From the NCBI GenBank assembly GCA_001777515.1, contig MFEF01000024.1, positions 1 through 39,228 on the forward strand: 39,228 nt of DNA, written 5' to 3'. A program made the position numbers and the translations under genes. The notes under the pieces were generated by a model. That model was not told where the DNA came from. It was given only the letters and a program-made list of their open reading frames with translations, and ran no database searches. Of the stretch, positions 4,851 through 39,228 are shown piece by piece (the stretch's first letter is position 1; every line of letters starts with the position of its first letter). The DNA is from Candidatus Doudnabacteria bacterium RIFCSPHIGHO2_01_48_18 (GTDB taxonomy: Bacteria; Patescibacteriota; Doudnabacteria; UBA920; 2-01-FULL-46-14).

Positions 4851-4856
4851 GATTTA

Positions 4857-4953
4857 TCCAGCACCTTCCAGAATACCCCGCAGCTTGCTGCGGGGATGAA
4901 TGGCTCAATATAGCCTTCCTGCGGGGTGCAATACCCCGACAGGAAGGTCTGGA
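4857..4953 (+). mobile_element. Palindromic element copy 1 (97 bp; 1-nt deletion in right arm)
   Basis: TCCAGCACCTTCC...GGAAGGTCTGGA; flanked by TTTA at 4853-4856 and 4954-4957. Confidence 0.9.
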
Positions 4954-5316
4954 TTTATTTTCATTCATAAAGACAAAGATTATTTAGCAGACATGATTTC
5001 GCAAATAGACAAATTTTTGAGAGCCGAGCTGAAGCTTGGGCTCCATCCGCAAAAAATTATTTTAAGAAAATTATCGCAAGGCATTGATTTCCTCGGTTAT
5101 GTTATTTTACCTTATCATCGGGTGCTAAGGACAAAAACCAAACGCCGAATGTTTCGCAAGGTGAATGAGAAAGTGCGCGATTGGGAGAGTGGCCAGACCA
5201 GCCGGAAATCGCTGGAGCAGGCTTTGCAGTCGTATTTCGGAATGCTGAAGCCTTGCCGGGCATGGAGGTCAAAACAAGAATTAAAATTAAAACGAATGCT
5301 GGATACCGGCTCGTAG
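4954..5316 (+). pseudogene. DGR reverse transcriptase, C-terminal fragment only
   Basis: FIFIHKDKDYLADMISQIDKFLRAELKLGLHPQKIILRKLSQGIDFLGYVILPYHRVLRTKTKRR matches the part of a retron/DGR-type RT that follows the YADD motif; everything upstream, including YxDD, is missing at the palindromic element. Confidence 0.85.
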
Positions 5317-5416
5317 GCCGGAATGTCAGCCATGTATTAAGTTGCGAATTTCCTCGGGAAGTGTTATAATTTTCAAGTAAATTTTAACGCATCTGATCGG
5401 GGGTGTTTAACTAAAA

Positions 5417-5653
5417 GTGGTAGAAGTAAAGCGGAAAGATGGGGAGTCGTTTGAAAGCTTGCTCCGTCGTTTCAATCGCAAAATCCAGCAAAGTGGAGTT
5501 TTGGTCCGTGCCCGCAAGATCCAGTTCTATGAGCCGCCCAAATCCCGCAACCTGGCCCGTGTCAGTGCCCGCCGCAGAGCTGAACTCTCGGCTGAACGTG
5601 AAACTCTTAAAAAACTTGGTAAGCCTGTAAGCTATAAATGGAAAAGCCGCTAA
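5417..5653 (+). CDS. rpsU: 30S ribosomal protein S21
   Basis: VEVKRKDGESFESLLRRFNRKIQQSGVLVRARKIQFYEPPKSR...; GTG start. Confidence 0.9.
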   Translation: MVEVKRKDGESFESLLRRFNRKIQQSGVLVRARKIQFYEPPKSRNLARVSARRRAELSAERETLKKLGKPVSYKWKSR

Positions 5654-6087
5654 AAGAAACGATCGCGGCAGACCTTAAAGCCGCTTTGAAACAAAAGGAT
5701 ACGCGCAAAGTTTCTGTTCTGCGTATGATTAACGCTGAGATCAAAAATCTGGAAATCGAGATGCGTAAGGACGCTGTCGACGCGGACGTGCTCAAGGTTT
5801 TGAACTCGAGCGCGAAAAAGCACCAGGATTCGATCACCCAGTTTCAATCAGGTGGCCGCCTGGATCTCGTGGAGCAGGAACAAGCAGAGCTCAAAATCAT
5901 TCAGGAATATTTACCAGAGCAGCTAGGCGATGCGGAACTTGATGCGCTTATCGAGGGCGCGATAAAAGAAACGGGCGCCAGCAGCGCCGCGGATTTTGGC
6001 AAAGCCATGAAAACCTTGATGCCAAAAATCCAGGGCCGCGCTAACGGACAAATAGTTTCCCAAAAGTTAAAAGAAAAATTAGGCTAA
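5638..6087 (+). CDS. GatB/YqeY domain protein
   Basis: LKEtIaADLKAALKQKDTRKVSVLRMINAEIKN...EYLPEQLGDAELDALI...GKAMKTLMPKIQGRANGQIVSQKLKEKL. Confidence 0.93.
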   Translation: MEKPLKETIAADLKAALKQKDTRKVSVLRMINAEIKNLEIEMRKDAVDADVLKVLNSSAKKHQDSITQFQSGGRLDLVEQEQAELKIIQEYLPEQLGDAELDALIEGAIKETGASSAADFGKAMKTLMPKIQGRANGQIVSQKLKEKLG

Positions 6088-7335
6088 ATGTCTTCAGAAC
6101 AAATATTAGTGGGGCTTGATATCGGAACCACAACCATCAGGGTCGTGGTCGGTAAAAAAGAGAACCCCGGAACGCCCCCGAGCATAATCGGAGTGGGCGA
6201 AGCCAAAGCTTCTGGAATCAGAAAGGGCGTTATCGTTGACATTGAAGAAGCCGTGTCTTCTATTTCTAAAGCCTTGGAAAAAGCCGAACGCATGACGGGC
6301 ATCCCGACCCAGCACGCGGTCGTGTCAGTGGGCGGCGCGCACGTGGTGTCGCTCGAGAGTCACGGCGTGATCGCCGTCGCCAGAGCGGACGGCGAGATCA
6401 CCGAGAACGACGTGGTGCGGGTGATAGACGCGGCGCAGGCCATCCAGGTGCCAACCAACCGCGAGATTTTACACGTCATACCCAAAGATTTTACGGTTGA
6501 TGGTCAGACAGGCATCAAAGACCCGGTCGGCATGACTGGCATCAGGCTCGAGGTGGACGCGCAAATCATCGAGGCTTCCATCCCTTTTATAAAAAATCTC
6601 ACGAAATGCGTGATCCAGGCAGGCATTGATATTGATGATTTGGTTTTGGCGCCGCTGGCCTCCGCGCAGGCCGTGCTCACCAAGCGCCAGAAAGAACTAG
6701 GCGTCGTGCTCATTGAGCTGGGGGGCGGCACTACAGGACTCGTGGCATTTGAAGAATCAGAACTCCTGCATACAAATATTCTCGCGGTCGGTTCGGATCA
6801 CATTACGAATGACATCGCGATTGGCCTGCGGACCTCTGTGGATGTTGCTGATACCGTCAAGCTCGAATACGGCCGGGCCATGCCGACTGCGGTTAAAAAG
6901 GACGAGGTTATCAATCTATCCAAAATCGACAAAAACGAAGAGGGACAAGTCTCAAGGCTTCATTTAACAGAGATCATCCAGGCACGCCTCGAGGAAATTT
7001 TTTCCATGGTCAACAAAGAGCTGAAAGCCGCCGGCCGAGACGGGCAGCTCCCGGCGGGCGCGGTATTGACTGGGGGCGGAGCAAAGCTGCAGGGGATAGT
7101 AGAATTGGCAAAAAAAGAACTCCGTCTGCCGGTACAGATCGGCTACCCCTTAAATATTTCCACAATCATTGACCGTGTTGATGATCCAGCCTATGCTACA
7201 GCCGTGGGCCTGGTGCTTTGGGCGGACGAATACCTTGCATCCGATAAAGCCGGCATGGGCAGGTTTGCCTCCAAGATTTTACAAAACGCTAGCATCGATA
7301 AAATTCGTAAATTTTTCAAGCAGTTCTTGCCTTAG
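6088..7335 (+). CDS. ftsA: Cell division protein FtsA
   Basis: VGLDIGTTTIRVVVG...IGVGEAKASGIRKGVIVDIEEA...ELGGGTTGLVAF...VLTGGGAKLQGI. Confidence 0.95.
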   Translation: MSSEQILVGLDIGTTTIRVVVGKKENPGTPPSIIGVGEAKASGIRKGVIVDIEEAVSSISKALEKAERMTGIPTQHAVVSVGGAHVVSLESHGVIAVARADGEITENDVVRVIDAAQAIQVPTNREILHVIPKDFTVDGQTGIKDPVGMTGIRLEVDAQIIEASIPFIKNLTKCVIQAGIDIDDLVLAPLASAQAVLTKRQKELGVVLIELGGGTTGLVAFEESELLHTNILAVGSDHITNDIAIGLRTSVDVADTVKLEYGRAMPTAVKKDEVINLSKIDKNEEGQVSRLHLTEIIQARLEEIFSMVNKELKAAGRDGQLPAGAVLTGGGAKLQGIVELAKKELRLPVQIGYPLNISTIIDRVDDPAYATAVGLVLWADEYLASDKAGMGRFASKILQNASIDKIRKFFKQFLP

Positions 7336-7353
7336 GTAAACTTGCGAAAAAAG

Positions 7354-7373
7354 CCCTAGACTTGCGTCTAGGG
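7354..7373 (+). promoter_or_regulatory. ftsA-ftsZ intergenic hairpin
   Basis: Perfect CCCTAGAC-TTGC-GTCTAGGG; no following U tract. Confidence 0.5.
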
Positions 7374-7406
7374 TATGGTGTATTATGCCTTTACTAATCG
7401 ACCCAA

Positions 7407-8564
7407 ATGCCGAGATCTACTGAAGTAAAACCAAAAATCGAGACCATTGCCCGGATCAAAGTGATCGGGGTTGGCGGCTCGGGGCACAACGCGATCCACC
7501 GCATGATCACAGCGGGCCTCACCAATGTGGAATTTGTGGCAATCAACACGGATGCCCAGGCCCTACACCACTCGAAAGCAGACAAAAAGGTACAGATTGG
7601 CAAACAGGTCACGAGAGGCTTGGGTGCTGGCATGAATCCAGAGGTAGGGCGGGCAGCAGCAGAAGAAAGCAAGGAAGAAATCCTCGAGGTTCTCTCCGGC
7701 AGTGACATGGTGTTTGTAACATGCGGCCTGGGTGGTGGCACTGGAACGGGAGCCGCGCCAGTGGTGGCTGAGCTTGCGAAAGAAGAAGGCATCCTCACGG
7801 TCGCGGTTGTGACCAAGCCGTTTGCGTTTGAGGGCGCCAAGCGCCGTGAGCTCGCGGAAAAAGGCCTTGAGGAACTCAAAGATAATGTCGACACTATCAT
7901 TGTCATCCCCAATGATCGCATTTTGCAGATTATTGATAAAAAGACTTCGCTTCTGGATGCATTTCGTACGGTAGATGATGTGCTCAGGCAAGGCGTGCAA
8001 GGCATCGCTGACCTTGTTACTACCCCTGGGCTTATCAACGTTGATTTTGCTGACGTGAAAAGCGTGATGTCAGATTCTGGCTCTGCGCTCATGGGCATTG
8101 GCCGCGGCTCTGGCGAGAACCGGGCGATTGAAGCTGCCAAACAAGCGATTGATTCGCCGCTTCTTGAGGTTTCTATTGATGGCGCCAGAGGAGTTTTGTT
8201 TAATATCACGGGTGGCAAGGACCTGGGTATGTACGAGGTTGATGAAGCAGCCAAGATTATCACCAAGAGCGTGGATAGTGATGCCAAGATTATTTTCGGA
8301 GCAGTGATTGACGAGGCTATGTCGGACGAGGTGCGCATTACTGTGATTGCTACGGGTTTTGATGAAATCGCGCGGTCGCGAAAAGCCATTCCGCAACAGC
8401 GCATGGCGCCGATTTCCGCGCCTTTAGGTTTTGGCGTAACTCAGGAGATCTCGGAAACCCCTGCCAAATCAACGTATTCGCCGAAAGCCGTGGATGAAGA
8501 TGGCGAGGACGAAGAAAATGAAGAACTCGACATCCCCGCGTTTATACGGAAGAAGATGAAATAA
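7407..8564 (+). CDS. ftsZ: Cell division protein FtsZ
   Basis: [17 protein letters not shown]...[16 protein letters not shown]...; C-terminal peptide [13 protein letters not shown]. Confidence 0.98.
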
Positions 8565-8565
8565 A

Positions 8566-8663
8566 TCCAGCACCTTCCTGTCGGGGTATTGCACCCCGCA
8601 GGAAGGCTATATTGAGCCATTCATCCCCGCAGCAAGCTGCGGGGTATTCTGGAAGGTGCTGGA
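8566..8663 (-). mobile_element. Palindromic element copy 2 (98 bp, inverse orientation)
   Basis: Reverse complement identical to copies 3 and 4; flanked by TAAA (8562-8565, which includes the ftsZ TAA stop) and TAAA (8664-8667). Confidence 0.95.
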
Positions 8664-8669
8664 TAAAAA

Positions 8670-9071
8670 ATGAAAAAGTTATTCAGCGTAAAATTTTTTG
8701 TTCCCCTTTCAATTTTAATCGTCGGGGGGAGCGTTTTTGGGACATATTATTTGATTTCCGAAAAAAATAGAAATTCGTCCATAAAAAAATTTACTGAATC
8801 TTTTAGAGATTCCAATACGATTGAGACTAGTCAAACCACCCTTGAGATCGTGCCTGGAATGGTACGGCTTTTTCCTAATCGAGCCAAAGAAATTGCAAAT
8901 TTTTTAAGAGATCTACCAGATTTCGCCAGGGTAAGGGCGGTTGCAACAGATGGGAAAAAATTTCTTGTTGCGGCTGAAAGCTATTATCAGGCCGGTACGC
9001 ACCCGATAATAGCGGAATACGAGAATGGCCAATGGCGTGATGTTACTGATCGGGGAATGGTTATTGGCTGA
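8670..9071 (+). CDS. Membrane-anchored hypothetical protein (N-terminal part)
   Basis: N-terminal TM (FFVPLSILIVGGSVFGTYYLI); overlaps next ORF at ATGA. Confidence 0.6.
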   Translation: MKKLFSVKFFVPLSILIVGGSVFGTYYLISEKNRNSSIKKFTESFRDSNTIETSQTTLEIVPGMVRLFPNRAKEIANFLRDLPDFARVRAVATDGKKFLVAAESYYQAGTHPIIAEYENGQWRDVTDRGMVIG

Positions 9072-10180
9072 TGGGTGGGAATAGTTTTAATGAACAATAT
9101 GACAATTATGTCTTGCTGAAATATAAAGATGGGCGGTTTGATAACCTAACTTCATTTTTACCGAAAGATAAAAGGAACCTCAGCATTAATTCACTGAATT
9201 ATGGTCCAAAGAAAGGCTGGCTAATCGGTTCTTGGCATAACGATGGTTCAGTAATACTCCGATACGATGAGAAGAGCATTTATAGTATCTTGGATTCCCA
9301 AAGTCAAACGCCCGGGCCAAACAAAAGGTTTCAAGTTCGCGCCATCGATAATGACGGCACTGATTATGTAATTGGCGGCACCCAATCTAGTGTGTCTTTA
9401 TACATAAACAGCGGCGGATTTGATAATGCAGTATTGGATTCCTATGAATCGACAAAATTTGCCCTAGGGACAGACACAGGCGCAATAAATGCTGTCCGAT
9501 ACGATCCTAATTCAAAAAATTACTCTAAATGGCTTCTAGCAACTGCCAATGGTCCAATGCTTGAGTTTGACTTGAGCAATATAAAGCGCGCTGACAAACT
9601 GCCATATAGTAACTTTTATTCTGACTTTTATAATGTTATGGAATTCCAAGGTTCTGATTTGCTGTTAGCGACTACTGGAGATGAGAAGACTGGTCGTTTT
9701 ATTAAGTTCAAAACGGTTTTTGGCAACTCTTTAAATCTTTTTGAGATGCATGAGCTAGTGCCATTTAAAAAAACTGGCGAGGTTGTTTCAAACAGGATCT
9801 CGGAAAGCCTAAAATGGTATGAAGCTATCGGAAAGATCAAGCTGGAGTCTAAAAGAGACGAACCTAAAAACACAAAAATAAATTTCTATGCCTCTCGTGA
9901 CGGCGGACGTAGCTGGCTGGCTTTCGATGGCAATTCCGATTTCGTCGATGTGAGGTTCGGTGGCAAGGATGTATTATGGAGAGCTGAGCTTTCCAGTAAG
10001 ACCGGTGAGCATAGCCCAACCTTGAGGCAAGTCATAGTTGATTATCAAGTAATTATTTCAGATTATATTCTGATTGCTTGTATGGCTGCAGTTGCCCTTC
10101 TTGAGGCACTCTTGTTGCTCATTATTTACAAGTTTTTTAACAAACCGCTTCGACCCGAGTTGCCAGGAACAACTTTGTAA
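9071..10180 (+). CDS. Beta-propeller-like hypothetical protein with C-terminal TM
   Basis: Repeated short YxxGxF/W motifs, C-terminal YILIACMAAVALLEALLLLIIYKFF; may continue ORF 8670-9071 through a frameshift. Confidence 0.6.
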   Translation: MGGNSFNEQYDNYVLLKYKDGRFDNLTSFLPKDKRNLSINSLNYGPKKGWLIGSWHNDGSVILRYDEKSIYSILDSQSQTPGPNKRFQVRAIDNDGTDYVIGGTQSSVSLYINSGGFDNAVLDSYESTKFALGTDTGAINAVRYDPNSKNYSKWLLATANGPMLEFDLSNIKRADKLPYSNFYSDFYNVMEFQGSDLLLATTGDEKTGRFIKFKTVFGNSLNLFEMHELVPFKKTGEVVSNRISESLKWYEAIGKIKLESKRDEPKNTKINFYASRDGGRSWLAFDGNSDFVDVRFGGKDVLWRAELSSKTGEHSPTLRQVIVDYQVIISDYILIACMAAVALLEALLLLIIYKFFNKPLRPELPGTTL

Positions 10181-10204
10181 ATTCGCCTACCAGGATGGAC
10201 AGGT

Positions 10205-10236
10205 AGCTCGACCATGATGGATCGAGCTTTTTCTTT
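10205..10236 (+). terminator. Rho-independent terminator
   Basis: AGCTCGA-N10-TCGAGCT followed by TTTTCTTTT. Confidence 0.65.
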
Positions 10237-10240
10237 TGTC

Positions 10241-10287
10241 TTGACAATTATTACCCGGTAATATATAATTATTACAGAGTAATAATT
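10241..10287 (+). promoter_or_regulatory. Promoter with two overlapping operator-like palindromes upstream of the TA operon
   Basis: TTGACA (10241-10246), 17-bp spacer, TATAAT (10264-10269); palindromes TATTACC-C-GGTAATA (10249-10263) and AATTATTAC-AGA-GTAATAATT (10267-10287), centres 21 bp apart. Confidence 0.8.
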
Positions 10288-10298
10288 ATATATTATTT

Positions 10299-10538
10299 AT
10301 GGTCCAAAATGATCGCAAAAATACCGAAGTTTTAAGTGTTTCTTTACCGAAAGAACTAAAGCGCGATATATTAGAATTTTCAGAGGAGCTAGATATTCCC
10401 GTGAGTAAAGTGGCAAAAGACGCTTTGGAAAGCTATATTCTTCGGCGTCGTTGGGATGAAATTCAACGCGTTTTTGGTCCAGCGGCGAGGAAATTGGGCA
10501 TCAAGACTGACGAGGATGTGGAGCGCTTTTTTGGTTAA
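10299..10538 (+). CDS. RHH/CopG-like antitoxin
   Basis: LSVSLPKELKRDILEFSEELDIPVSKVAKDALESYI; paired with PIN toxin. Confidence 0.8.
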   Translation: MVQNDRKNTEVLSVSLPKELKRDILEFSEELDIPVSKVAKDALESYILRRRWDEIQRVFGPAARKLGIKTDEDVERFFG

Positions 10539-10549
10539 ATTCGGCCTGC

Positions 10550-10966
10550 GTGAAAATAGTTTTTGATACCAATATTTATATTGCCGCGGCATTGAACCGC
10601 GGCTTTATTCACAGGCTTGTCCAAGAGATTGTGACTGACCGTGAGATGCAAGTCTTTATTTCTAAGGACATTATCGTAGAATTACAAAATAAAATGGGAA
10701 TTTTTTTAAACAAGGGGTTGATTCAGCCGTACAATGTCGTTTATGTTTTTGAAACCATCAGGGCTTCTACTCAAACAGTCGAACCAAAGGAGCAAATATC
10801 AGTACAAGAGGTTGCGTCTGATGATTTCAAGATTTTGGAGTGCGCTGTTGCCGCAGAGGCAGATCTGATCGTAACCATGGATCAGGTTCTGCTGCGCCTC
10901 AAGCGCTTTCGCAATATCGGCATTGTTCACCCAAAAACCTTTTCTTTCATGTTCCCGCAAAAATGA
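10550..10966 (+). CDS. PIN-domain toxin (VapC-like)
   Basis: KIVFDTNIYIAAAL...D..ILECAVAAEADLIVTMDQVLLRL; GTG start. Confidence 0.85.
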   Translation: MKIVFDTNIYIAAALNRGFIHRLVQEIVTDREMQVFISKDIIVELQNKMGIFLNKGLIQPYNVVYVFETIRASTQTVEPKEQISVQEVASDDFKILECAVAAEADLIVTMDQVLLRLKRFRNIGIVHPKTFSFMFPQK

Positions 10967-11106
10967 AGTCTAGAAAGCAATCTTATCTTGAAATTTTAAG
11001 GAAGACTCGAGGCGCTTGGGGAAAAGCTGGTAAAATTGACAAGCGGATAGAAAAACAAAGAAATACTATTGAGCTGAAAGCGGCAAAATACCGAAGAACT
11101 ATCTAA
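10963..11106 (+). CDS. Small basic ORF, third gene of the TA operon
   Basis: 47 aa MKSRKQSYLEILRKTRGAWGKAGKIDKRIEKQRNTIELKAAKYRRTI; ATGA overlap with the toxin stop. Confidence 0.5.
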   Translation: MKSRKQSYLEILRKTRGAWGKAGKIDKRIEKQRNTIELKAAKYRRTI

Positions 11107-11153
11107 AACGAAGAACTCGACATCCCGCGTTCATTCAAAAGAAGATGAAGTAG
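11107..11153 (+). repeat. Diverged duplicate of the ftsZ 3' end
   Basis: AACGAAGAACTCGACATCCC-GCGTTCATTCAAAAGAAGATGAAGTAG aligns with ftsZ 8517-8564 with one 1-nt gap. Confidence 0.85.
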
Positions 11154-11166
11154 TTTAAATAAGAAC

Positions 11167-11204
11167 AAAGCTCTGTCAGGTTTGATCTTGGCAGGGCTTT
11201 TTAG
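11167..11204 (+). terminator. Rho-independent terminator
   Basis: AAAGCTCTGTCA...TGGCAGGGCTTTTT (fully paired allowing G-U). Confidence 0.7.
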
Positions 11205-11218
11205 ATCGTTCAGTCTAA

Positions 11219-11400
11219 AGTTCAGACGAACAGATCAGAGAGGTTTGCAGGCGGTTTTTTGAGAAGTTCCACCCCAGCAAGCGTTTCAAGTGTGGGCGGC
11301 TCGGCCTTCACCATAGCTTCCAATAACTCCCGGCACTCGTCCTGAATCGAGAAGGATATCCAGAACGGTTGATGTATCAATCGCTCTTGCCTGATTCATT
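11219..11400 (-). pseudogene. Possible frameshifted small ORF
   Basis: Minus strand: RBS GGAGG, then MNQARAIDTSTVLDIL..; a second frame continues DECRELLEAMVKAEPPTLETLAGVELLKKPPANLSDLFV*. Confidence 0.3.
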
Positions 11401-11686
11401 GTGATCCTCCGTATGTGGGGAAAAGTTTCGCCTTTTTGAAAGCCCGATCAACGGACTTAAAAGACGAGAGTCGTATCCTGATCAACAGAACCGACTCGCA
11501 GATAGTGTAAGGCAAGTGGGGGGATTGCACAATAACGGCTCACACGCGTCTGAGCCGTTGAAAAAGCTACCTCTCTCCCTCTCGCGATTACACTCAAGGC
11601 ACTCTCCCCTCGCAAGGGGAGAGGAAGAGTTTGCTTCGCTCTACTGTGGAAAAGTCGGAAAAAACGCGAAAAATCGCGGATTTGAC

Positions 11687-11738
11687 AAAAACTATATATA
11701 GGGATAGGCTGGGTACATAGACCACTATATATAGTGGT
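11687..11738 (+). promoter_or_regulatory. Paired NrdR boxes / promoter region of nrdR
   Basis: aaaCTATATATAGgga and ccaCTATATATAGtgg, centres 33 bp apart; TTGACA at 11682-11687. Confidence 0.75.
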
Positions 11739-11837
11739 TTTGCAAAAACCCTGATACAAAAACCAACCGATTGTAGTTTTTACGCTGGAATATAAGAACC
11801 TGGAGGCCTATCTCTTTTTTGTCCCTAAAAATAAGCC

Positions 11838-12284
11838 ATGAATTGTCCTTTCTGCTCAAAAGAAGATACCAAAGTCATAGACAGCCGGGTTGCCTCGGAC
11901 GGCCTTTCGATTAGGCGCAGGCGCGAGTGCGAATCCTGCTCCGGCAGGTTCTCCACCTATGAAGAGGTGGAAATTCTGGACCTGGTAGTGGCCAAACGGG
12001 ACGGTCGGACCGAGCCATATGCCCGGGAAAAGCTGGAGGTTGGCCTTCACAAGGCTCTAGAGAAACGGCCGATCAGCCATGATGAATTTCGTCAGCTTGT
12101 TTCCGAGATTGAACAGGATATTCAGAAGAAAACCGAGAATAGCAAGATTGAATCCAAGGAGATCGGCAATATAGTGGTAAAAAAACTCAAGAAATTCGAC
12201 CAGGTCGCTTACATTCGTTTTGCTTCAGTCTACAGACAATTTGAAGATATAGAGGAGTTTAAGAAAGAATTGCAGAAGTTATGA
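11838..12284 (+). CDS. nrdR: Transcriptional repressor NrdR
   Basis: MNCPFCSKEDTKVIDSRVASDGLSIRRRRECESCSGRFSTYE..., ATP-cone. Confidence 0.97.
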   Translation: MNCPFCSKEDTKVIDSRVASDGLSIRRRRECESCSGRFSTYEEVEILDLVVAKRDGRTEPYAREKLEVGLHKALEKRPISHDEFRQLVSEIEQDIQKKTENSKIESKEIGNIVVKKLKKFDQVAYIRFASVYRQFEDIEEFKKELQKL

Positions 12285-12293
12285 GGGTCCTAC

Positions 12294-12359
12294 TTGTCAT
12301 CCTGAGGTACTCCGAAGGATCTCTGGAGATTCTTCGGCGATTACGCCTCAGAATGACAG
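12294..12359. repeat. TGTCATCCTGAGG-type imperfect palindrome
   Basis: TTGTCATCCTGAGG...CCTCAGAATGACAGA inverted arms. Confidence 0.7.
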
Positions 12360-12403
12360 AAAGAGGTATGAGTTATCAATTATTAGTTATTAATTAAACA
12401 AAA

Positions 12404-14938: not shown

Positions 14939-14978
14939 AATTATCCCTTTGATCCTTCTGATCCTAATATTTCTTTAC

Positions 14979-15206
14979 TGTCATTCCCCGGCTTGACCGG
15001 GGAATCCAGTTTATGGAAGCAAAACAATATTACGTTTACATTCTTGCAAGCAAAAAGAATGGCACTTTATATATCGGTGTCACCGATAATATTATAAAGA
15101 GAATTTGGCAGCACAAGAACGATTTGGCTGATGGCTTTACCAAGAAGTATAAGGTACATATGCTGATATATTATGAAACTGGATTCCCGCTTCCGCGGGA
15201 ATGACA
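14979..15206 (+). mobile_element. GIY-YIG fragment bracketed by inverted palindromic repeats
   Basis: TGTCATTCCCCGGCTTGACCGGGGAATCCAG ... CTGGATTCCCGCTTCCGCGGGAATGACA. Confidence 0.55.
15013..15204 (+). pseudogene. Truncated GIY-YIG endonuclease-like ORF
   Basis: YYVYILASKKNGTLYIGVTDNIIKRIWQHKNDLADGFTKKYKVHMLIYYE, then palindrome-encoded TGFPLPRE. Confidence 0.75.
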
Positions 15207-15241
15207 AGTTTTCTCCCATCGAGGGAGGGGAATTAGTCTTT

Positions 15242-27632: not shown

Positions 27633-28335
27633 AAGTAGTCAGTTTGCCAGCACGAATTTCGATTTTGTCAGCACGTCGCAGGGATGCGACCTGCTTTTTA
27701 TTGAGGATGCTCGTGTGCGGCACGCGGTTTAAATACTCGTCTATGTACCACAGGTCAGTGTCTGAAGTGATCCAGTTTTTAGTATCAAAGCGCGAGAGAT
27801 CAACTGGCTCAGAGTAAGAGCGCAGAGTTTTTTTGCCGTCATTGAGGAAATATTCGTGGAAATACGACATGACCAGTTCGCGAAGAGAATTGTAGACGGG
27901 CTCACGATAACGCAGCACCGCGTGATTGGTTTTGGAAATTGCGCCCCATTCGCTGTTTATCCAGCACCTTCCAGAATACCCCGCAGCTTGCTGCGGGGAT
28001 GAATGGCTCAATATAGCCTTCCTGCGGGGTGCAATACCCCGACAGGAAGGTGCTGGATTTATTTTAAATACCGCAATGGCGTGGTTGCGGTCGCGCTTAT
28101 GCGCGCGCAGATCAACCACGAGGGGTTTGTGGCCGTGGAATTTTAATATTGCGGCTGCCAGCATCGCGCCTTCCATGCAGTGGGCCCGCCGGTACTTCAG
28201 AACTTGGCGGGGCGAATAGCAGGTTTGCCGGCCGCGCTCGAAATTTATCGGAATCTGCTCCAAGAAATCCTGAATCTTGGCAGGCGTGTTCAGGCGCTGG
28301 AAAAGTTTGATTTCTTCTTTATTTAAGCCATACAT
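27613..28335 (-). CDS. Transglutaminase-like conserved protein interrupted in-frame by palindromic element copy 3
   Basis: RRAHCMEGAMLAAAILKFHGHKPLVVDL (Cys), RDRNHAIAVFK (His); element contributes [34 protein letters not shown]; excision restores AVFKINSEWGAISKTNHAVLRYREPVYNSLRELVMSYFHEYF. Confidence 0.8.
   Translation of the reverse strand: MYGLNKEEIKLFQRLNTPAKIQDFLEQIPINFERGRQTCYSPRQVLKYRRAHCMEGAMLAAAILKFHGHKPLVVDLRAHKRDRNHAIAVFKINPAPSCRGIAPRRKAILSHSSPQQAAGYSGRCWINSEWGAISKTNHAVLRYREPVYNSLRELVMSYFHEYFLNDGKKTLRSYSEPVDLSRFDTKNWITSDTDLWYIDEYLNRVPHTSILNKKQVASLRRADKIEIRAGKLTTFKRGSK
27960..28057 (+). mobile_element. Palindromic element copy 3 (98 bp)
   Basis: Identical to copies 2 and 4; TTTA at 27956-27959 and 28058-28061. 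Confidence 0.95.
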
Positions 28336-31086: not shown

Positions 31087-31930
31087 CAAAATCTGGAACG
31101 CTGTTTTTGTTTTGTTGGCGGCGAATCTCGCTGTCTGGTCAGGAGTCATCGCCAGAAATCCGAGGGAGTTTGCGACGGTAAATTTTTTTGACGTTGGCCA
31201 GGGCGATTCGATTTACATCCGGACTGTGCAAGGTAACGACATTCTCATTGACGGCGGTCCGGGTGACGCGGTCCTTGGCAAGCTCGGGCGGGATCTGCCT
31301 TATGGCGATCGGCAGATCGAGATGGTTATTATCACGCACCCGCACGCAGACCATGTGTCTGGCGTAGTTGAGGTGCTGCGGCGCTTCACGGTCAAAAAAG
31401 TTTTACTCTCGGATGTCGCGTACTCTTCTGAAACTTATAAAACTCTGCTGGAGATCCTCGAGCAGAAGCAAATCCCAGTTGTCAGACCCAAGCTCGGCCA
31501 GCGGATTTATCTGGATCACCACACTGTCATGGATGTCTTGTATCCTGTGGCCGGGGACAAAATGCAAACGCCTGAGGATGTTAACGAAGCATCCACGATC
31601 GCGCGCCTAAGCGTGGGAAAAAGCCACGTTTTGTTTACTGGTGATGCCGGCAAATCCCAGGAAACGCTTCTCACACGGCTTGGGCTGCCTCTCCAGGCGC
31701 AGGTTTTGAAGGTGGGGCACCAAGGCTCCAAAACTTCGTCTGCGCCCGAGTTCCTGGCCGCGGTCAACCCAGATTATGGAGTGATAATGGTTGGCAAAAA
31801 CAACTATGGGCACCCGCATGAGATTACGCTGGAGACGCTCGGCCTCCAGCAGATCAGTGTTTTGCGCACTGACGAGAAGGGTGATATCAGCTTTCGGATA
31901 TACCCTGATCGAGTCTTGCTAAATGATTGA
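31064..31930 (+). CDS. ComEC-type metallo-beta-lactamase domain (separate ORF)
   Basis: VNFFDVGQGDSIYIRTVQGNDILIDGGPGD...IITHPHADHVSGVVEVL...LFTGDAGKSQE...LKVGHQGSKTS. Confidence 0.9.
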   Translation: MPEKQRYSKIWNAVFVLLAANLAVWSGVIARNPREFATVNFFDVGQGDSIYIRTVQGNDILIDGGPGDAVLGKLGRDLPYGDRQIEMVIITHPHADHVSGVVEVLRRFTVKKVLLSDVAYSSETYKTLLEILEQKQIPVVRPKLGQRIYLDHHTVMDVLYPVAGDKMQTPEDVNEASTIARLSVGKSHVLFTGDAGKSQETLLTRLGLPLQAQVLKVGHQGSKTSSAPEFLAAVNPDYGVIMVGKNNYGHPHEITLETLGLQQISVLRTDEKGDISFRIYPDRVLLND

Positions 31931-31951
31931 AAATCCGCTAATCTAAAGGAC

Positions 31952-32542
31952 ATGAAGTATTTTGTCACTGCGATCTCTATCCTTTTACTGGCCGCGATTG
32001 CCTGGCTGATCTTTTTTTCAGGGATTGTTTTAAACAGGGAACAAAAAGAAATGAACAATACGCAAAGCACAGGGGAAACAATTGTCGTTATGGAAACTAC
32101 TCTTGGTCTCGTGGAAATAACCCTCAACCAGACGAGCGCTCCTCAGACCAGCGCCAATTTTGAAAAGCTGGTGAGGCAAGGGTTTTATAACGGCCTCACA
32201 TTTCATCGCATCATCCCCGGGTTTGTGGTGCAGGGCGGCGACCCGAAAGGGGATGGTACCGGTGGTCCTGGCTACACAATTCCGGCGGAAATAAAACTTC
32301 AGCATAAGCGCGGCGCTGTGGCTGCCGCGAGACTCGGTGATCAGGTCAATCCCACCAGAGCTTCTTCCGGCAGCCAGTTTTACATCGCGTTTCAAGATCT
32401 GCCTATGCTTGACGGGCAGTACACGGTTTTTGGGCAAGTGGTGACAGGCATGGACGTGGTTGATCAAATGGCCGCAGTGAAGACTGATGCCGCGGACAAG
32501 CCGCTCGAGCCAGTCATAATTAACAAAGCGTATATCAAATGA
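31952..32542 (+). CDS. Cyclophilin-type peptidyl-prolyl cis-trans isomerase
   Basis: [40 protein letters not shown]. Confidence 0.95.
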
Positions 32543-33129
32543 GCAATCCCAGAGAAGAAATTACTTTTTTAATGGTAAAGCCTGATGGCGTAAAGCGCGG
32601 CCTGACCGGAGAGATCATCCGCCGCCTTGAGCAGGTCGGTTTGAAGATTGTCGCGCTCGAGTTGCAGAAACCCAGTCGCAAGCAGGTGGATGATCATTAT
32701 CCAAAAGCTCCGAACTGGATACACCGGCTTGGCGAGAAGACCCTGGCGACGTATGAGAAATTTGGCTTTGACGCGGTAAAGGAGCTTGGCACAAAGGACG
32801 CTGGGAAAATCGGGATCATGGTCCGCAAGTGGCTCATTGATTTCATGACCTCGGCTCCAGTGGTAATCATGGCCATCAAGGGCGTGCACGCGGTAGCTAT
32901 GGTCAGAAAACTGGCCGGCAACACTATGCCGTCAGACGCGCCTTTGGGAACGATCCGCGGTGATTTCTCGGTTGATAGCGCGGCTGCCGCGAACCGCGAA
33001 AAGCGGGCAGTGTTCAACCTGGTGCATGCCTCGGAAACAGAAGAAGAAGCAATACACGAGATCAAGCACTGGTTTGGAAAATCAGTGATCCACGATTACG
33101 ATCGCACCGACGACGAAGTGTTTAAATAG
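32539..33129 (+). CDS. ndk: Nucleoside diphosphate kinase (extended form)
   Basis: [54 protein letters not shown]. Confidence 0.95.
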
Positions 33130-33158
33130 TGTTTTGGCTCGAGGCCGGATGGCGCGAA

Positions 33159-33193
33159 AATAACTCCGATCATGATCGGAGTTATTTTTTTCG
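33159..33193. terminator. Bidirectional terminator between convergent ndk and rel/spoT
   Basis: Perfect 28-nt palindrome AATAACTCCGATCATGATCGGAGTTATT plus T run. Confidence 0.8.
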
Positions 33194-34675
33194 GATAAAT
33201 TCCGGCAGGAAACTCCAGCCGCCGCCTTTTTCTTTGAGGTGAACTTTGATCTTGCTTCTCGCGTTGGAGGTTTTGGCAATCCGGAGCCAATCGCGGGAAA
33301 CATTTACTTTGTTGCTTTTTACTATTTCCACCACATCCCCGTTCTGGAGCTCGTCCGCGAGCTTGCCCATTTTGCCGTTGACCTTGGCGCCCATGGCGTA
33401 GAGACCCAAATCAGTATGAACCGCGAACGCGAAATCGAGCGCGGTCGCGCCTTCGGGCAAATCTTTGACCTCGCCCTTGGGAGTAAAAATGAAAATGCGG
33501 TTTTTGAAAAAATCGATCTTGAGTGCCTCCATAAACTCGGCCGAGCTGCCGCCTGTGTCTTTTTGCCAATCTCGCAGCTGCGTCACCCATTCGAGCTGTT
33601 TGGGTATCTTGTAGCCCCATTTTGGCTTGCCGTGTTCGATGTAGGCCCAGTGGGCCGCGATTCCATATTCCGCCTCATAATGCATTTCCGCGGTCCGGAT
33701 CTGGGCCTCGAGTACGCGTCCTTCCGGTCCAAACACAGTGGTATGAATGCTGCGGTAGCCGTTGGGCTTGGGGAAAGCGATATAATCTTTGATGCGTCCC
33801 GGCAGCGGCCGGAATTTGGAATGCAAAACGCCGAGCGTGGCGTAGCAGTCCTCCAGGTTCTTGGTAATGATGCGCAGCGCGACCAGGTCATAGATTTTGG
33901 TAATATCCCGGTCGTATTTTGGCCTGAGCAATTTTTCATACAGGCTATAGCGATGTTTGGCGCGGCCGTGGATGTCCTCGACCTTAATGCCGGCATCTTC
34001 CAGATATTTCTTGATAACCTTTTTGGCTCCCTCCACATACTCTCGCGCTTCTTCGTAGTGGCCTTTGCCTTGCTCAGCCAGCCATTTTGATTCTTCCGGA
34101 TAGGCGATCGCAAAGCTCAAATCTTCAAGCTCTCCCCTGAGCTCTCCCATCCCGAGGCGGTTAGCGATAGGCGCGTACACTTCGAGAGTTTCTCTGGCGA
34201 TTCTTTTGCGTTTCTCTTCAGGCAGGAAACGAATAGTCAGCATGTTGTGACGGCGATCCGCAAGCTTGATCAGCACCACTCTGATATCGGCCGCCATCGA
34301 CAAGAACATTTTGCGCAGAGTCTCAATATAGTTTTCATCCTGCTGGTTGCGGAGCTTGATTTTTCCAAGCTTGGTTACGCCCTCAACCATAAACGCCACT
34401 TGGGGTCCAAAATTTTTACGAATGTCCAAGATAGAGGTTTTGGTATCTTCTGGCACGTCATGCAGTAGCCCGGCGATCACCGTGTCAGTATCCATGCGCA
34501 GGTGGCTGCCGAGGTAATCTGCCACTGCCAGAGAATGGGTGATGTAATCATCGCCAGATTTTCGTTTCTGGCCGGCGTGCGCTCGGGCAGCAAATTCATA
34601 AGCCATCTCAAACAGTTTGATCTGGTCGGGTTTATAGTTTTTCTTGAAATTTTCGAAGACTTCTCTGTAAGTCAT
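33182..34675 (-). CDS. RelA/SpoT-family (p)ppGpp synthetase/hydrolase
   Basis: HD (HSLAVADYL..LLHDVPEDT), synthetase (YDLVALRIITKN; KPNGYRSIHTTVFGPEGRVLEAQIRTAEMHYEAEYGIAAHW), TGS domain. Confidence 0.95.
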   Translation of the reverse strand: MTYREVFENFKKNYKPDQIKLFEMAYEFAARAHAGQKRKSGDDYITHSLAVADYLGSHLRMDTDTVIAGLLHDVPEDTKTSILDIRKNFGPQVAFMVEGVTKLGKIKLRNQQDENYIETLRKMFLSMAADIRVVLIKLADRRHNMLTIRFLPEEKRKRIARETLEVYAPIANRLGMGELRGELEDLSFAIAYPEESKWLAEQGKGHYEEAREYVEGAKKVIKKYLEDAGIKVEDIHGRAKHRYSLYEKLLRPKYDRDITKIYDLVALRIITKNLEDCYATLGVLHSKFRPLPGRIKDYIAFPKPNGYRSIHTTVFGPEGRVLEAQIRTAEMHYEAEYGIAAHWAYIEHGKPKWGYKIPKQLEWVTQLRDWQKDTGGSSAEFMEALKIDFFKNRIFIFTPKGEVKDLPEGATALDFAFAVHTDLGLYAMGAKVNGKMGKLADELQNGDVVEIVKSNKVNVSRDWLRIAKTSNARSKIKVHLKEKGGGWSFLPEFIRKK

Positions 34676-34791
34676 GAAATCAGCTGCTAGCTTCCTGGCT
34701 TTTTAGCTTATCTAGGGCTATGATACTATGATTATAATCTTTTTATTATCTAAAAAGCTAGGAAGCTAAAAAAGCTAGAAAGCTAAAAAAA

Positions 34792-35808
34792 ATGCCGGAA
34801 CTGCCAGAAGTAGAGACCATCAAACGGGGTCTGGAGAAAACCATTGTCGGAAAAAAGATCGGCAGCGTTGAGGTTCGGCTGCCCAAAATCGTGAGTATCG
34901 GGCCGGCAGTCGTCAGCAACATCCGAAAAAACTCAAGCGCCAAGGTCAAGAAATTCCGGCAGCTTGCAGCTAACCACAAGATCATGGCGGTGAAGCGCCG
35001 CGCGAAAATGCTCATGCTCGACCTCTCCGGTCCTTTCACCATCCTTGTGCATTTGAAAATGACTGGCCAGCTTATTTTCGCCAAAAAACGCGAAAAAAAA
35101 ATCGTGAAGATTTTGAACGCGGCCAATTCGCGCAAAGAGCTGCTGCCCCACAAATACACGCACGTGATTTTTACATTCAGCGACGGCTCGCGTCTCTATT
35201 TCAATGACCTCAGACAGTTTGGCTACATGCGGCTCGTTCCGGATGATGATCTCGCGCGGGTTCGCGAGCTGGCAGAATACGGCCCTGAACCCGACGCTTT
35301 AGAATTCACCGCGCAGTATTTGATTGACAAAGCAAAAACCCGCCCAAAGCTGGCGGTCAAGCAGTTTCTCATGGATCCAAAGGTCGTGGCCGGCATCGGC
35401 AATATTTATCCAGCACCTTCCAGAATACCCCGCAGCTTGCTGCGGGGATGAATGGCTCAATATAGCCTTCCTGCGGGGTGCAATACCCCGACAGGAAGGT
35501 GCTGGATTTATTCAGATGAGATTTTGTACTGGGCCAAGGTGAGGCCAATGCGCGCGTTGCGGTCGCTCTCCAGAGAAGATTGGAAAAATATTTACAAGAA
35601 TATTCCCAGGGTTCTGAATGGCGCGATCAAGGCGGGCGGATCATCGGTTGGTGATTTTTTTCAGGTGGATGGCAGCGAAGGCAAGTACGGCCGTTTGCAT
35701 ATGGTGTATGGAAGGGGAGGCGAGCAGTGCAGGAAGTGTGGAAATATAATAAAAAGTGTTAAGCTGGGAGGTCGAACAGGAAGTTATTGTCCAGGATGCC
35801 AACAATGA
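34792..35808 (+). pseudogene. mutM: Formamidopyrimidine-DNA glycosylase (Fpg) interrupted by palindromic element copy 4
   Basis: MPELPEVETIKRGLEKTIVGKKI...VVAGIGNIY [element] SDEILYWAKVRPMRALRSL...CRKCGNIIKSVKLGGRTGSYCPGCQQ; frame preserved, one TGA inside the element. Confidence 0.93.
35409..35506 (+). mobile_element. Palindromic element copy 4 (98 bp)
   Basis: TTTA at 35405-35408 and 35507-35510; inserted in the mutM H2TH motif. Confidence 0.97.
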
Positions 35809-35870
35809 ATTTTCAAATTGTAAATTGGTTCTTGATTGAAAATTACAAAATTGATAATTAAAAATTATTT

Positions 35871-36218
35871 ATGACAGAAGATAAATGGCAACAAATCAAG
35901 GAAAATATCACTAAGCGGTTTACTATTGAAGAAGAGGGGATGGAAGACCTGCTCGCGGAAACCGGCGAGGGACAGGTCAAACTGGGAGAGGCAGAATTTA
36001 TTATTTTTGAAAGTCCGCTGGGGCGGCTGAAGCTGCAGTTTGGCAAGAAGCCCAGGGTCGAGGACAAGGTTTATCATTATAGCCACCGCGCCGGCACAGG
36101 AGCGCGGGTGGAGTACAAATTTTCCGATGAAGAATTGGTGAATACTTTCAAGGCGTTCAAATGGAACGAGACAGATGATGACTGGAAAGAAATCGATGCT
36201 GAAGGATTCAATTTTTAA
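35871..36218 (+). CDS. Conserved hypothetical protein
   Basis: 115-aa ORF MTEDKWQQIKENITKRFTIEEEGMEDLLAETGEG... Confidence 0.7.
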   Translation: MTEDKWQQIKENITKRFTIEEEGMEDLLAETGEGQVKLGEAEFIIFESPLGRLKLQFGKKPRVEDKVYHYSHRAGTGARVEYKFSDEELVNTFKAFKWNETDDDWKEIDAEGFNF

Positions 36219-37056
36219 AGTCGTTGCTTTTTTTGACGCCCAGGATATTGCGCTCACACTGGCTGAGATTCAAAATTATCTGGATAGCAAAGCCTCGCTT
36301 CGCGAAATCGAAACCTGCCTGGACGAGGATTTAGCAGGCAAAATCGAGTCGAATGGCAGTTTGTATTTTCTCCGGGGACGGACGAATATCGCTGAGGCCA
36401 GACAAGAGCGCTACCGAACGTCTCTGCTGCGGTTTCGCAAAGCGAAAAAATATTTATGGGCTTTGCGCTTCTTCCCGTATTTGCGGGCGGTTGCCTTGTC
36501 CGGATCGCAAGCGCTCCTCAATGTCACGCCCGAATCCGACGTTGATCTTTTGATAATCACCAAGAAAAATCGCATCTGGCTGACGAGAGCCCTAATTTCC
36601 GGTTATTTTCAGATTCTGGGTCAGCGCCGTCATGGCCGGCACGTGGCCGGGCGGTTTTGCTTGAACCACTATCTGGCAGAAGACAAAGAAATCACCGATG
36701 ATCGCAATCTATATACTGCGGTGGAGTACGCAAATCTCTTGCCAGTCCTGGGCGCGGAAAATATCGCCAGGTTTTGGGACAATAATAAATGGATAAAAGA
36801 ATATTTGCCGGCAGCAGTCCTGGAAACAACCCAGCCGTTTTTTGATTTTCGATTCAGCGGCATGAGTCTGATCTTGGAAACAGTTCTCGAGTATACAATT
36901 GGTCCAGCCTTGAACCATGTTTTGGGAATCTACCAAAAACGACGGATACGACGCCAGGAAAACATTCTCGTTTCCGATGATGAGCTGTCATTCCACCCCG
37001 GGTCCCATGGCCAAAAAGTTTTGGAAAAATACAAGAAGGCTGTCTCGACCAGTTGA
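36196..37056 (+). CDS. Nucleotidyltransferase-like protein
   Basis: VALSGSQALLNVTPESDVDLLIITKKNRIWLTRALISGYF (GS-X-D-X-D motif). Confidence 0.65.
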   Translation: MLKDSIFKVVAFFDAQDIALTLAEIQNYLDSKASLREIETCLDEDLAGKIESNGSLYFLRGRTNIAEARQERYRTSLLRFRKAKKYLWALRFFPYLRAVALSGSQALLNVTPESDVDLLIITKKNRIWLTRALISGYFQILGQRRHGRHVAGRFCLNHYLAEDKEITDDRNLYTAVEYANLLPVLGAENIARFWDNNKWIKEYLPAAVLETTQPFFDFRFSGMSLILETVLEYTIGPALNHVLGIYQKRRIRRQENILVSDDELSFHPGSHGQKVLEKYKKAVSTS

Positions 37057-37081
37057 TCGAAACAGCCTTCCGGCCAGGTTT

Positions 37082-37360
37082 TTAGGCTGTCATAGAAATG
37101 GTGTGGTGCTGAAGTGCGAGGAACATTCCCAGCTCCCAGTTTTGAGCGTCGCTAAACTCTGCTCTCGCAGCATACGGTTCAGCTGCTCGTTCTCGGATTT
37201 GTTCTTCGAAGCCCTGAATATTAGGCATAGTCAATTGGTATTCTGCCAAGGCCCAGTCAAAGCGCGCTCGCGCCTGCGAGATGCAAAGAGCAATGTGCTG
37301 CGTGGTTTCGTGGAAATCCGTAGGGGAAACTGTCAATTTTTTGTTGACGAACCGGAACAC
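37082..37360 (-). CDS. Hypothetical protein
   Basis: 92-aa ORF overlapping the next minus-strand ORF. Confidence 0.4.
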   Translation of the reverse strand: MFRFVNKKLTVSPTDFHETTQHIALCISQARARFDWALAEYQLTMPNIQGFEEQIRERAAEPYAARAEFSDAQNWELGMFLALQHHTISMTA

Positions 37361-37572
37361 TCCTTAAGATAGGATGGTACCTCGTACTCGCGGGATACCA
37401 AGAGCCAGGCGAAGTGGTGATCTGCTCTACGGTAGTCTTCTTCATACCGCACATCAATGCGTCCGGTACGATCTCGCCAGCGCCAAATGGAATACGCCAC
37501 GCACAGAACAAATTTGTCGAAAAACTCTGGTCCAACAGGCTGTTTGATACCCTTCTTCTTGCTCAAATCCAC
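37333..37572 (-). CDS. Hypothetical protein
   Basis: 79-aa ORF, strong RBS AAGGAGGTG upstream of GTG start. Confidence 0.5.
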   Translation of the reverse strand: MDLSKKKGIKQPVGPEFFDKFVLCVAYSIWRWRDRTGRIDVRYEEDYRRADHHFAWLLVSREYEVPSYLKECSGSSTKN

Positions 37573-37711
37573 GTAACACCTCCTTAAATTTGTAATAAGT
37601 TAAATTAACATTTTCAATTTTAAGGGTCAACCCGGGTTGACCCTATGTGTAAAGCTTGGTAAAATTTTGAATACGTTCCGGGGTAGCTCAGTTGGTAGAG
37701 CAGTTGACTGT

Positions 37712-38254
37712 GAGTTGTTCCTTTCAAGTGTGGTATACTTAGGTAAGTATGCCAGACAAAAGAACATATGCAGACCGCGCTGAATACATGCGCATAGCCG
37801 TTAGGAAGCGCAGAAACAAGCTTCGGCAAATGGCGCGCGAGTATAAGGGCGGCAAATGCATGCTTTGTGGTTATAAGCGTTATGCTGGAGCATTAGATTT
37901 TCATCATCTTGATGCCAAGACAAAAGAGTTTGGAATTTCAGTCAAAGGACTGACACGCTCTTGGGAAAAGATCAAAGCTGAAATTGAAAAATGTGTTCTA
38001 GTATGTGCTAATTGCCACAGAGAAATACATGCAGGCATATCGCAGCCTCCTAGCGTAAGCTAGGTTGCAAACGAGGTGAACTCGGGGAAGTCCACAAACG
38101 GATAATCCCGAGCCAAGCCCCGATCAATATCGGGGAAGGTGTAGAGACTATCTCGCAAGAGAGTAGTTCCGATAACTAAATCGGCACGAAGCTCCTCGCA
38201 TCCCAATTGGGATGATGATATAGTCCATCCCTAGAGGTAACTTTAGGATAAATG
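37712..38254 (+). ncRNA. Group I-like self-splicing intron
   Basis: 5' exon ends in U, intron ends in G; conserved-core-like GTGAACTCGGGGAAGTCC..CGGATAATCCCGAGCCAAGCC, GGTGTAGAGACTATC ... GATGATATAGTCC. Confidence 0.85.
37749..38063 (+). CDS. HNH homing endonuclease encoded within the tRNA intron
   Basis: CMLCGYKRYAGALDFHHLDAKTKEFGIS...CVLVCANCHREIHAG. Confidence 0.9.
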   Translation: MPDKRTYADRAEYMRIAVRKRRNKLRQMAREYKGGKCMLCGYKRYAGALDFHHLDAKTKEFGISVKGLTRSWEKIKAEIEKCVLVCANCHREIHAGISQPPSVS

Positions 38255-39198
38255 TAATCAATTGGTCGTGGGTTCGAGTCCCACCCCCGGAGCCAGATAG
38301 GATGAACATCAGCGAAAGCTGGTGTTTTTCCTTTATTGACGGGCTCTTTTGGCGGTTCGAAAGTGTTTTTTTCGTCTACTTTTTCTCCCAACATCTGCAT
38401 TACTCGGTTAGAAACCATTTTGAAGGCTTTCTGGTATGAAATCTCGACTTTTTTGCCATTTAACGTGGTGTTCGAAAAAATCAGGGACAAAAGCAGTTTC
38501 TTGTCGTCCACCATTTCCTGTTTGTCCCGGTTGATGTAAATTTTCCATGCCTTTTTGGCCACTTGCAGGACTGTCTCTCCCATTTCGTAGTACTTCAGGT
38601 TTGCATCCTTGTGCTTATTGAGGCTGTCCAGTATTTGTTCTTGCTCGACTTTGTACTGCTCGTACTTCTTTTTGTAAAATTCCTCGCTGATTTTTTCATC
38701 AATCTTGTCATCGTATATCTTGTCCAGCCGTTGCGTGGCCACTTCGTATCGGCGGTTGAGTTCGGCCGTGGACTTGTCTCGGAATTCTATCTCCTCGCTA
38801 TGGCTTTCCTTGAGAGCTTCCTGGACCCAGGAAAGCATGCTTTCTACGGCCTGTTCGCCTTTGGGATTTAAAGTATTGATCGTTTCTATCAACTGCGCAT
38901 CCAAGACTTCCTGCCGGACAAACTCCCGTTGTTGGCAATTTTTGTAATGGTTGCAGTGGCCATACCAGTGGCCCCGTTGTATCTCCCATGTTATCCGGCC
39001 CTTGCATTCCTCGCAGTAAAACCGCATGAGGGCATCATAAAAGCCCACAAGGTTGAATGCGATGTCGTGCAGGTCTTGGTCGTTCACCTCCTGACCGAAC
39101 TCATTCTTGAGAATCACGCGGAGTTTCTCCAGCGTTTCCGGTTTTATCCAGCACCTTCCAGAATACCCCGCAGCTTGCTGCGGGGATGAATGGCTCAA
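38176..39198 (-). CDS. Serine recombinase, C-terminal part (zinc-ribbon and coiled-coil), interrupted at its 5' side by palindromic element copy 5
   Basis: FYCEECKGRITWEIQRGHWYGHCNHYKNCQQREFVRQEVLDAQL; long coiled coil; tail WLRGWDSNPRP encoded antisense to the tRNA-Asn 3' exon. Confidence 0.8.
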   Translation of the reverse strand: MSHSSPQQAAGYSGRCWIKPETLEKLRVILKNEFGQEVNDQDLHDIAFNLVGFYDALMRFYCEECKGRITWEIQRGHWYGHCNHYKNCQQREFVRQEVLDAQLIETINTLNPKGEQAVESMLSWVQEALKESHSEEIEFRDKSTAELNRRYEVATQRLDKIYDDKIDEKISEEFYKKKYEQYKVEQEQILDSLNKHKDANLKYYEMGETVLQVAKKAWKIYINRDKQEMVDDKKLLLSLIFSNTTLNGKKVEISYQKAFKMVSNRVMQMLGEKVDEKNTFEPPKEPVNKGKTPAFADVHPIWLRGWDSNPRPIDYIYPKVTSRDGLYHHPNWDARSFVPI

Positions 39199-39228
39199 TA
39201 TAGCCTTCCTGCGGGGTGCAATACCCCG
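39147..39228 (+). mobile_element. Palindromic element copy 5, truncated by window end
   Basis: 82 nt identical to copies 3 and 4; TTTA at 39143-39146. Confidence 0.95.

Follow-up and report, generated by a model that had tools for sequence, protein, structure and literature searches.

The window analysed here is a stretch of 39,228 nucleotides from Candidatus Doudnabacteria bacterium RIFCSPHIGHO2_01_48_18 (MFEF01000024.1), which represents contig C24 of the host genome G000 (919 kb, 33 contigs). It contains five copies of a palindromic element of 98 nt, hereafter the 98-mer. The outer coordinates below include the flanking TTTA repeats.

4853-4957, plus strand: copy 1, element 4857-4953 (97 nt, one G missing) between TTTA 4853-4856 and 4954-4957, located between the Avd gene of a diversity-generating retroelement (DGR) and a truncated DGR reverse transcriptase (RT) fragment.
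8562-8667, minus strand: copy 2, element 8566-8663 (98 nt), at the stop codon of ftsZ (7407-8564), the TAA being part of the target AATAAA.
27956-28061, plus strand: copy 3, element 27960-28057 (98 nt), inside a DUF553 transglutaminase-like gene (minus strand), with the frame left open; the orthologous site is empty in genome G001.
35405-35510, plus strand: copy 4, element 35409-35506 (98 nt), inside mutM (34792-35808), with a stop after 219 aa; the empty site in G001 reads AATATTTATTC.
39143-39228, plus strand: copy 5, left TTTA 39143-39146, element truncated where the contig stops, within a large-serine-recombinase-like gene (38176-39228, minus strand), with the frame left open.

The coordinates of the five copies given in a first-pass annotation of the window were confirmed, as was the presence of TTTA on both flanks of each complete copy. 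Copies 2-4 were identical 98-mers, copy 1 had lost a single G, and copy 5 was identical across its 82 nt. The gene fragment carrying copy 5 had no Pfam match and was identified as a serine recombinase by eye only. The 98-nt unit has recently been copied to ~40 places in the host. A BLAST search of this genome gave 42 matches, 28 of which were 100% identical over 106 nt; 35 copies were full-length, and at least 39 were substantial. Because contigs C5, C14 and C24 end within copies, the true copy number is higher. This one repeat family constitutes ~0.4% of the 0.92 Mb host genome. At one end of C14 (1-1337, L032), three copies were arranged with a 620-nt period, so that the segment between copies was repeated in tandem, either in reality or through assembly. 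The flank ACAGTTTCTTTCAATG of the copy at C26:23632-23729 was seen again at the copy at C3:62443.

In all 35 full-length copies, the left flank ended with TTTA and the right flank read TTTAT, followed by T in 33 copies and by C in 2, while the bases upstream of the left TTTA were not constrained. Thus, the TTTA direct repeats described previously were present in all complete copies, but they did not make up the whole target, since the right TTTA was always followed by T[T/C] to give TTTAT[T/C]. All 35 copies had the same polarity relative to the non-palindromic TTTATT, although the 13-bp ends of the element are identical. Orthologous empty sites were found in G001, a genome of the same genus, for mutM (69% identity over 599 nt, AATATTTA^TTC), for the copy at C22:46112 (82% over 641 nt, ACATTTA^TTG) and for the DUF553 gene (73% over 563 nt). 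The comparison of occupied and empty sites demonstrated that the element is mobile and that the TTTA repeats arise by insertion. TTTATT occurs once in two of the three empty sites; therefore, T[T/C] is part of the target sequence, and each insertion adds 98+4 nt.

The cloverleaf proposed earlier was confirmed for the single strand, whose folding energy was -34.8 kcal/mol versus -14.2 kcal/mol for shuffled sequences (z -8.2). In this structure, the terminal arms pair over 13 bp and two strong hairpins are formed. The fold is conserved. Among 20 diverse members, 94% of pair cells were paired, and both sides had changed in 11 of 27 pairs, a level reached in none of 500 shuffles. Slid-structure controls dropped to 40-53% paired, although this comparison is biased towards the cloverleaf, which had been obtained from the very alignment used for the control.

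Diverged relatives were found in genomes G002, G015, G027, G031 (13 element matches) and G044 and in named metagenome-assembled genomes (MAGs) from other studies, belonging to Magasanikbacteria, Doudnabacteria, Moraniibacteriota and unplaced Parcubacteria. The element was also present on JAHFJK010000016, a contig of the Ca. Doudnabacteria MAG nzgw384. Two further matches were on contigs labelled Syntrophaceae and Thermodesulfobacteriota, the labels being taken as given. The class-level search gave the same outcome as the order-level search. Searches of phages, plasmids, E. coli genomes and Rfam gave no match to the 98-mer, a result that speaks against a vector or a known RNA and agrees with the initial view of the sequence. 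Viral contigs matching 17 nt of the right end were coding look-alikes (GAGFI codons) without the left end, and stricter scans of viral contigs with the element ends gave nothing. No literature on such elements in Patescibacteria was found. Deletion derivatives of 39-67 nt that kept the ends were observed in the host (C7:17155-17202, C22:37463-37537) and elsewhere (L055, L123, L130, L116); some of them look as if they were formed between internal AATACCCCG repeats.

The effect of the element on genes was then considered. Excision of 98+4 nt restored mutM, with the Fapy_DNA_glyco, H2TH and zf-FPG domains in order, and the transglutaminase-like gene, as had been claimed; mutM is truncated because its copy sits in a stop-containing frame. 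Only 12 of the 35 copies were inside open reading frames of at least 100 aa, versus 76% of all genomic TTTATT sites (p ~2.5e-7, the two gene sets being called with slightly different cut-offs). Because of this strong depletion, it may be concluded that genic insertions were mostly removed. The frame was left open by 8 of the 12 genic copies, including those in uvrC, recX and a GmrSD/HNH gene. The other four (in mutM, a PAP2 gene, a pilin gene and at C26:23628) introduced a stop, but the upstream start at C26:23628 may be mis-assigned. It had been proposed that insertion preserves the reading frame. The arithmetic held (102 = 3 x 34), but such behaviour was not supported, since the open fraction equalled the 69% expected by chance from the phases of genic TTTATT sites. 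Selection for an open frame was thus rejected, and frame preservation is not evidence of adaptation. Three stop-free frames (FIQH.., INPAPS.., NKSS..) were found instead of the two listed originally.

An unbiased scan of palindromes with arms of at least 11 nt revealed siblings of the element. A 4-bp flanking direct repeat was present in 48 of 282 palindromes versus 1.2 expected, and the repeats were TTTA, TAAA or TGAA in 45 of these 48. About a dozen of the repeat-flanked palindromes differed from the 98-mer, having lengths of 26-115 nt, different interiors and TTTA or TTCA repeats. Their ends were of the type [TC]CC[AC]GC.CC..GG.GC[TG]GG[AG] (YCCMGC..GCKGGR). The end sequences varied among elements, yet the left and right arms remained paired. 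A 35-nt hairpin with the repeat TGAA was nested in the 98-mer family's own GATGAATGG (L050; similar in L188). Since the flanking repeats change together, target duplication is favoured. The end GTGGTGCTGGRTTTAY was found in 9 of 380 Patescibacteria genomes, with 7 matches in the host and 6 in G044.

Several other sibling arrangements were observed. Ends of a second type, CCCCGTTAGAAAT..ATTTCTAACGGGG, combined with TTCA repeats and other interiors, occurred in the host at C18:24421-24496, C8:9283-9345, C9:3114-3191 and C7:6897-6970, and one element of this type sits in a prepilin start. Two host elements with the repeat TGAA (C8:22314-22412, C31:31128-31230) were located exactly at stop/start junctions, where the upstream stop was kept and the downstream gene gained an ATG or GTG start. 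In G015 (L197, tRNA-Thr 2197-2268) and G013 (L302, L322), complete tRNA genes (Thr-CGT, Leu-CAG, Leu-CAA) were found just inside TTTACCCCGCACC ends. In L197, the element comes after an apparent 5' half of another tRNA gene. Elements may therefore carry tRNA genes or rebuild them in the way seen at prepilin starts.

For nine catalogued elements, the insertion point was at the Gly-Phe codons of a prepilin (GF^TLIE) or an epimerase (GGAGF^I). Prepilin peptidase cuts at G^F and tolerates varied leaders. Removal of the element and one TTTA restored the prepilin and epimerase genes exactly and gave clean gene starts, e.g. MRGQKGFTLIELLVV, MINTKAKGFTLLEILL and MAKVLVTGGAGFIGSNL. A syntenic empty site was present in G003, where the same epimerase gene follows the same dehydrogenase gene without an insert. 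The right end, GGT GCT GGR TTT A, encodes Gly-Ala-Gly-Phe and therefore rebuilds the G^F site of prepilins or the GxGF motif of the Rossmann fold. The length of the insert plus 4 was divisible by 3 in 4 of the 9 gene-start elements, and in three of these, with inserts of 35-80 nt, the frame ran through. The remaining inserts mostly supplied a new ATG (e.g. MSKVLVTGGAGFI, MKTIKKIKSVKSGAGF). In the element at C11:3905, judged by reading of the sequence, the frame was kept via one extra upstream A.

The element encodes no transposase, and the earlier suggestion that it is mobilised in trans was supported. The host had no match to Y1 transposases (PF01797), so that no enzyme of the type associated with repetitive extragenic palindromes (REPs), RAYT, was found there; matches to IS110 (PF01548) and DDE_Tnp_1 (PF01609) were also absent. 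No PF01797 match was found in the element-bearing genomes G002 and G015, whereas the family was present in G027, G031 and G044. RT loci were present in the host at C18:20872-22140 and, split, on C11, and no RT was found in the element-bearing G015 and G031. Thus, neither RT nor Y1 tracks the family. A Xer-like recombinase occurred in most genomes of the order, as one gene in the host and as no more than a degenerate match in G031. None of Y1, IS110, DDE_Tnp_1, RT and Xer was present at full strength across all element-bearing genomes, and all were rejected as the mobiliser.

Comparison with G001 revealed two rve-type transposases in the host, IS3-like (C10:34-885) and IS481-like (C26:23795-24871). 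The IS481-like gene is intact and lies 66 nt from an element copy; neither transposase is bounded by the ends of the element. Among the genes accessory relative to G001, there was no obvious candidate besides these transposases and pieces of serine recombinases. Elements of up to 6 kb with paired ends and TTYA repeats were looked for in the host assembly; no long one was found, and candidate long autonomous copies proved to be pairs of ordinary copies plus one chance pair. The donor transposon may reside in another genome or in unassembled sequence. In G046, an IS200-like Y1 element (L057) carries at its ends the hairpin CGCAGCTTGCTGCGGGG, which closely resembles internal hairpin 1 of the 98-mer. 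The IS200-like elements of G046 were rejected, having the hairpin CCGCAGCTTGCTGCGGGG in common but not the ends.

The reading preferred here, which is given about an even chance of being correct, is that the 98-mer is a non-autonomous, MITE-like (miniature inverted-repeat transposable element-like) hairpin transposon of Ca. Doudnabacteria and relatives, mobilised in trans and inserted with strand polarity. One enzyme supplied in trans would recognise the folded ends on one strand and would join this strand at TTYA^Y, in the manner of the IS200/IS605 (Y1) transposases, which act on single-stranded DNA. Fixed polarity would follow from such strand-specific handling. By an IS200/IS605-like route, the junction of a single-stranded circle would read GGATTTATCC. 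Selection would then clear most genic copies. Those that persist would be intergenic, or placed at stop codons or, close to the start of a gene, at Gly-Phe codons; in this last position, the right end would rebuild the motif, with the frame retained or a new start codon supplied.

Several observations weigh against this reading. In some relatives (L126, L135, L039, L196), the interior is inverted relative to TTTATT, which shows that its orientation can flip, albeit rarely; within the burst of the host, orientation is inherited. The TTCA/TTCA pairs suggest true duplication. Deviations from TTTA in old copies are neutral, being left-only in 3 and right-only in 3, and so give no decision between duplication and a fixed right end. 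The bias to the G-rich strand expected from targeting of the lagging-strand template was a trend only (24:10, p ~0.06, versus GC skew). IS200/IS605-derived elements are described as having neither terminal inverted repeats nor target duplications (PMC3119063), both of which are present here, and no Y1 transposase was found in the host, G002 and G015.

An ordinary MITE is a possible, though rather unlikely, explanation. In this case, a DDE transposase would bind both inverted repeats and make a 4-bp staggered cut, giving the target-site duplication TTYA, and polarity would come from asymmetric sequence inside the repeats. The chief arguments for it are the perfect inverted ends (13-15 bp) and the 4-bp repeats changing together (TTTA/TTTA, TTCA/TTCA), and the two rve transposases of the host could also be invoked. 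The chief argument against it is the single polarity of 35 of 35 copies at a non-palindromic target despite identical 13-bp ends; in addition, the end sequences vary while the arms stay paired, and neither DDE_Tnp_1 nor a long element with these ends was found in the host. An integron-attC-like mechanism, in which a tyrosine recombinase would act at TTTAT to exchange the junction of the folded element with the target, is improbable. Core homology would account for the polarity, a circular form would read GGAAGGTGCTGG-ATTTAT-CCAGCACCTTCC, with inverted arms around a 6-bp core, and Xer-like genes are widespread in the order. However, the target has no arm-like flanks, the host sites having only TTTAT[T/C] in common, and the Xer-like gene is single in the host and degenerate in G031, despite its 13 element matches.

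Still less probable is an RNA element resembling a short interspersed nuclear element, inserted by target-primed reverse transcription with an RT acting in trans. The tRNA-like cloverleaf, fixed polarity, target-site repeats and host RT genes fit such a route, but the family-bearing G015 and G031 lack RT, the host RTs resemble those of DGRs (by eye), and perfect inverted ends and minimal forms of 26-48 nt are unlike a retroposon. A fixed structured RNA or regulatory hairpin, or an assembly or adapter artefact, would be consistent with the conserved covarying structure and with contigs ending inside copies. It is refuted by the orthologous empty sites in G001 and G003, is at odds with the copies inside unrelated genes, the diverged copies in MAGs of other studies and the searches of plasmids, phages, E. 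coli and Rfam, and its probability is practically negligible. Finally, it is proposed very tentatively, as an unlikely possibility, that the hairpin transposon belongs to a new category of mobile hairpins, which would be defined by paired ends and TTYA^Y polarity and not by sequence, and would be served by a strand-specific enzyme outside the tested families. Its low-copy members would be gene-start cassettes landing at Gly-Phe codons and rebuilding a signal peptide, cleavage site or nucleotide-binding motif.

The element was compared with known systems. It resembles MITEs (Correia, RUP, ERIC) in being ~100 nt long, non-coding, multi-copy and mobilised in trans, without a transposase, and in having 13-bp inverted ends and a short target repeat, TTTA, which is single at empty sites. 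Unlike in these MITEs, no transposon with matching ends was found, polarity is fixed at TTTATT, the folded interior covaries, and the ends vary yet stay paired. REPs and REPINs with RAYT are also short palindromes amplified in one genome by a trans enzyme, but the 98-mer has TCC..GGA ends flanked by TTTA without a GTAG/CGTC tag, repeats flank each copy, and no Y1 transposase was found in the host.

Rickettsia palindromic elements are palindromic, occur as several families per genome and are found inside genes, sometimes in frame (PMC10969869). The link to them drawn in the first-pass annotation is appropriate as an analogy: compared by description, the 98-mer is also palindromic, with several families in one genome and some genic copies. 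It does not extend further, since the phylum differs, the TTYA repeats and target are defined, the high-copy family avoids genes and there is no frame bias. In Haloquadratum walsbyi, the IS605-related palindrome-associated transposable elements (PATEs) have no terminal inverted repeats and no target duplication, and the small mobile repeats of ~110 nt, whose mobilisation is unexplained, also have no target duplication (PMC3119063). Both resemble the 98-mer in being transposase-free and hairpin-bearing and in having minimal core-deleted forms. The 98-mer shares with PATEs the near-terminal hairpins and a fixed one-side target of 4-6 nt (TTTA^T[T/C]), hence polarity; PATEs are accompanied by a Y1 transposase in the genome, and the host has no PF01797 match. 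Because the 98-mer works most like an IS200/IS605-type element or a small mobile repeat, yet lacks defining features of PATEs and REPs, it was classed only as MITE-like.

Copy 1 belongs to the surroundings of a DGR at 2934-5316, which comprises a variable gene (2934-4058), a variable repeat (3923-4064), a template repeat (4356-4497) and a bAvd gene (4500-4850, minus strand; Pfam). There are 23 differences between the two repeats over 142 positions, 20 of them at A. Only a C-terminal fragment of the RT, identified by eye, remains after copy 1; the missing N-terminus suggests a deletion between two element copies. At the other end of the window, a group I intron (38029-38247, plus strand; Rfam RF00028, 66.8 bits) adjoins an HNH-like open reading frame (37749-38063) and the end of the serine-recombinase-like gene.

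Fixed polarity, the TTTATT target, the wider sibling class and the Gly-Phe gene sites go beyond the initial description of the repeat. In a streamlined Patescibacteria genome, mutM and probably a DGR have been broken by these elements. Their fixed polarity poses a testable question, namely, which strand-specific transposase is responsible. The siblings show how a mobile element can enter coding sequence without destroying it: its end encodes the motif that it interrupts.

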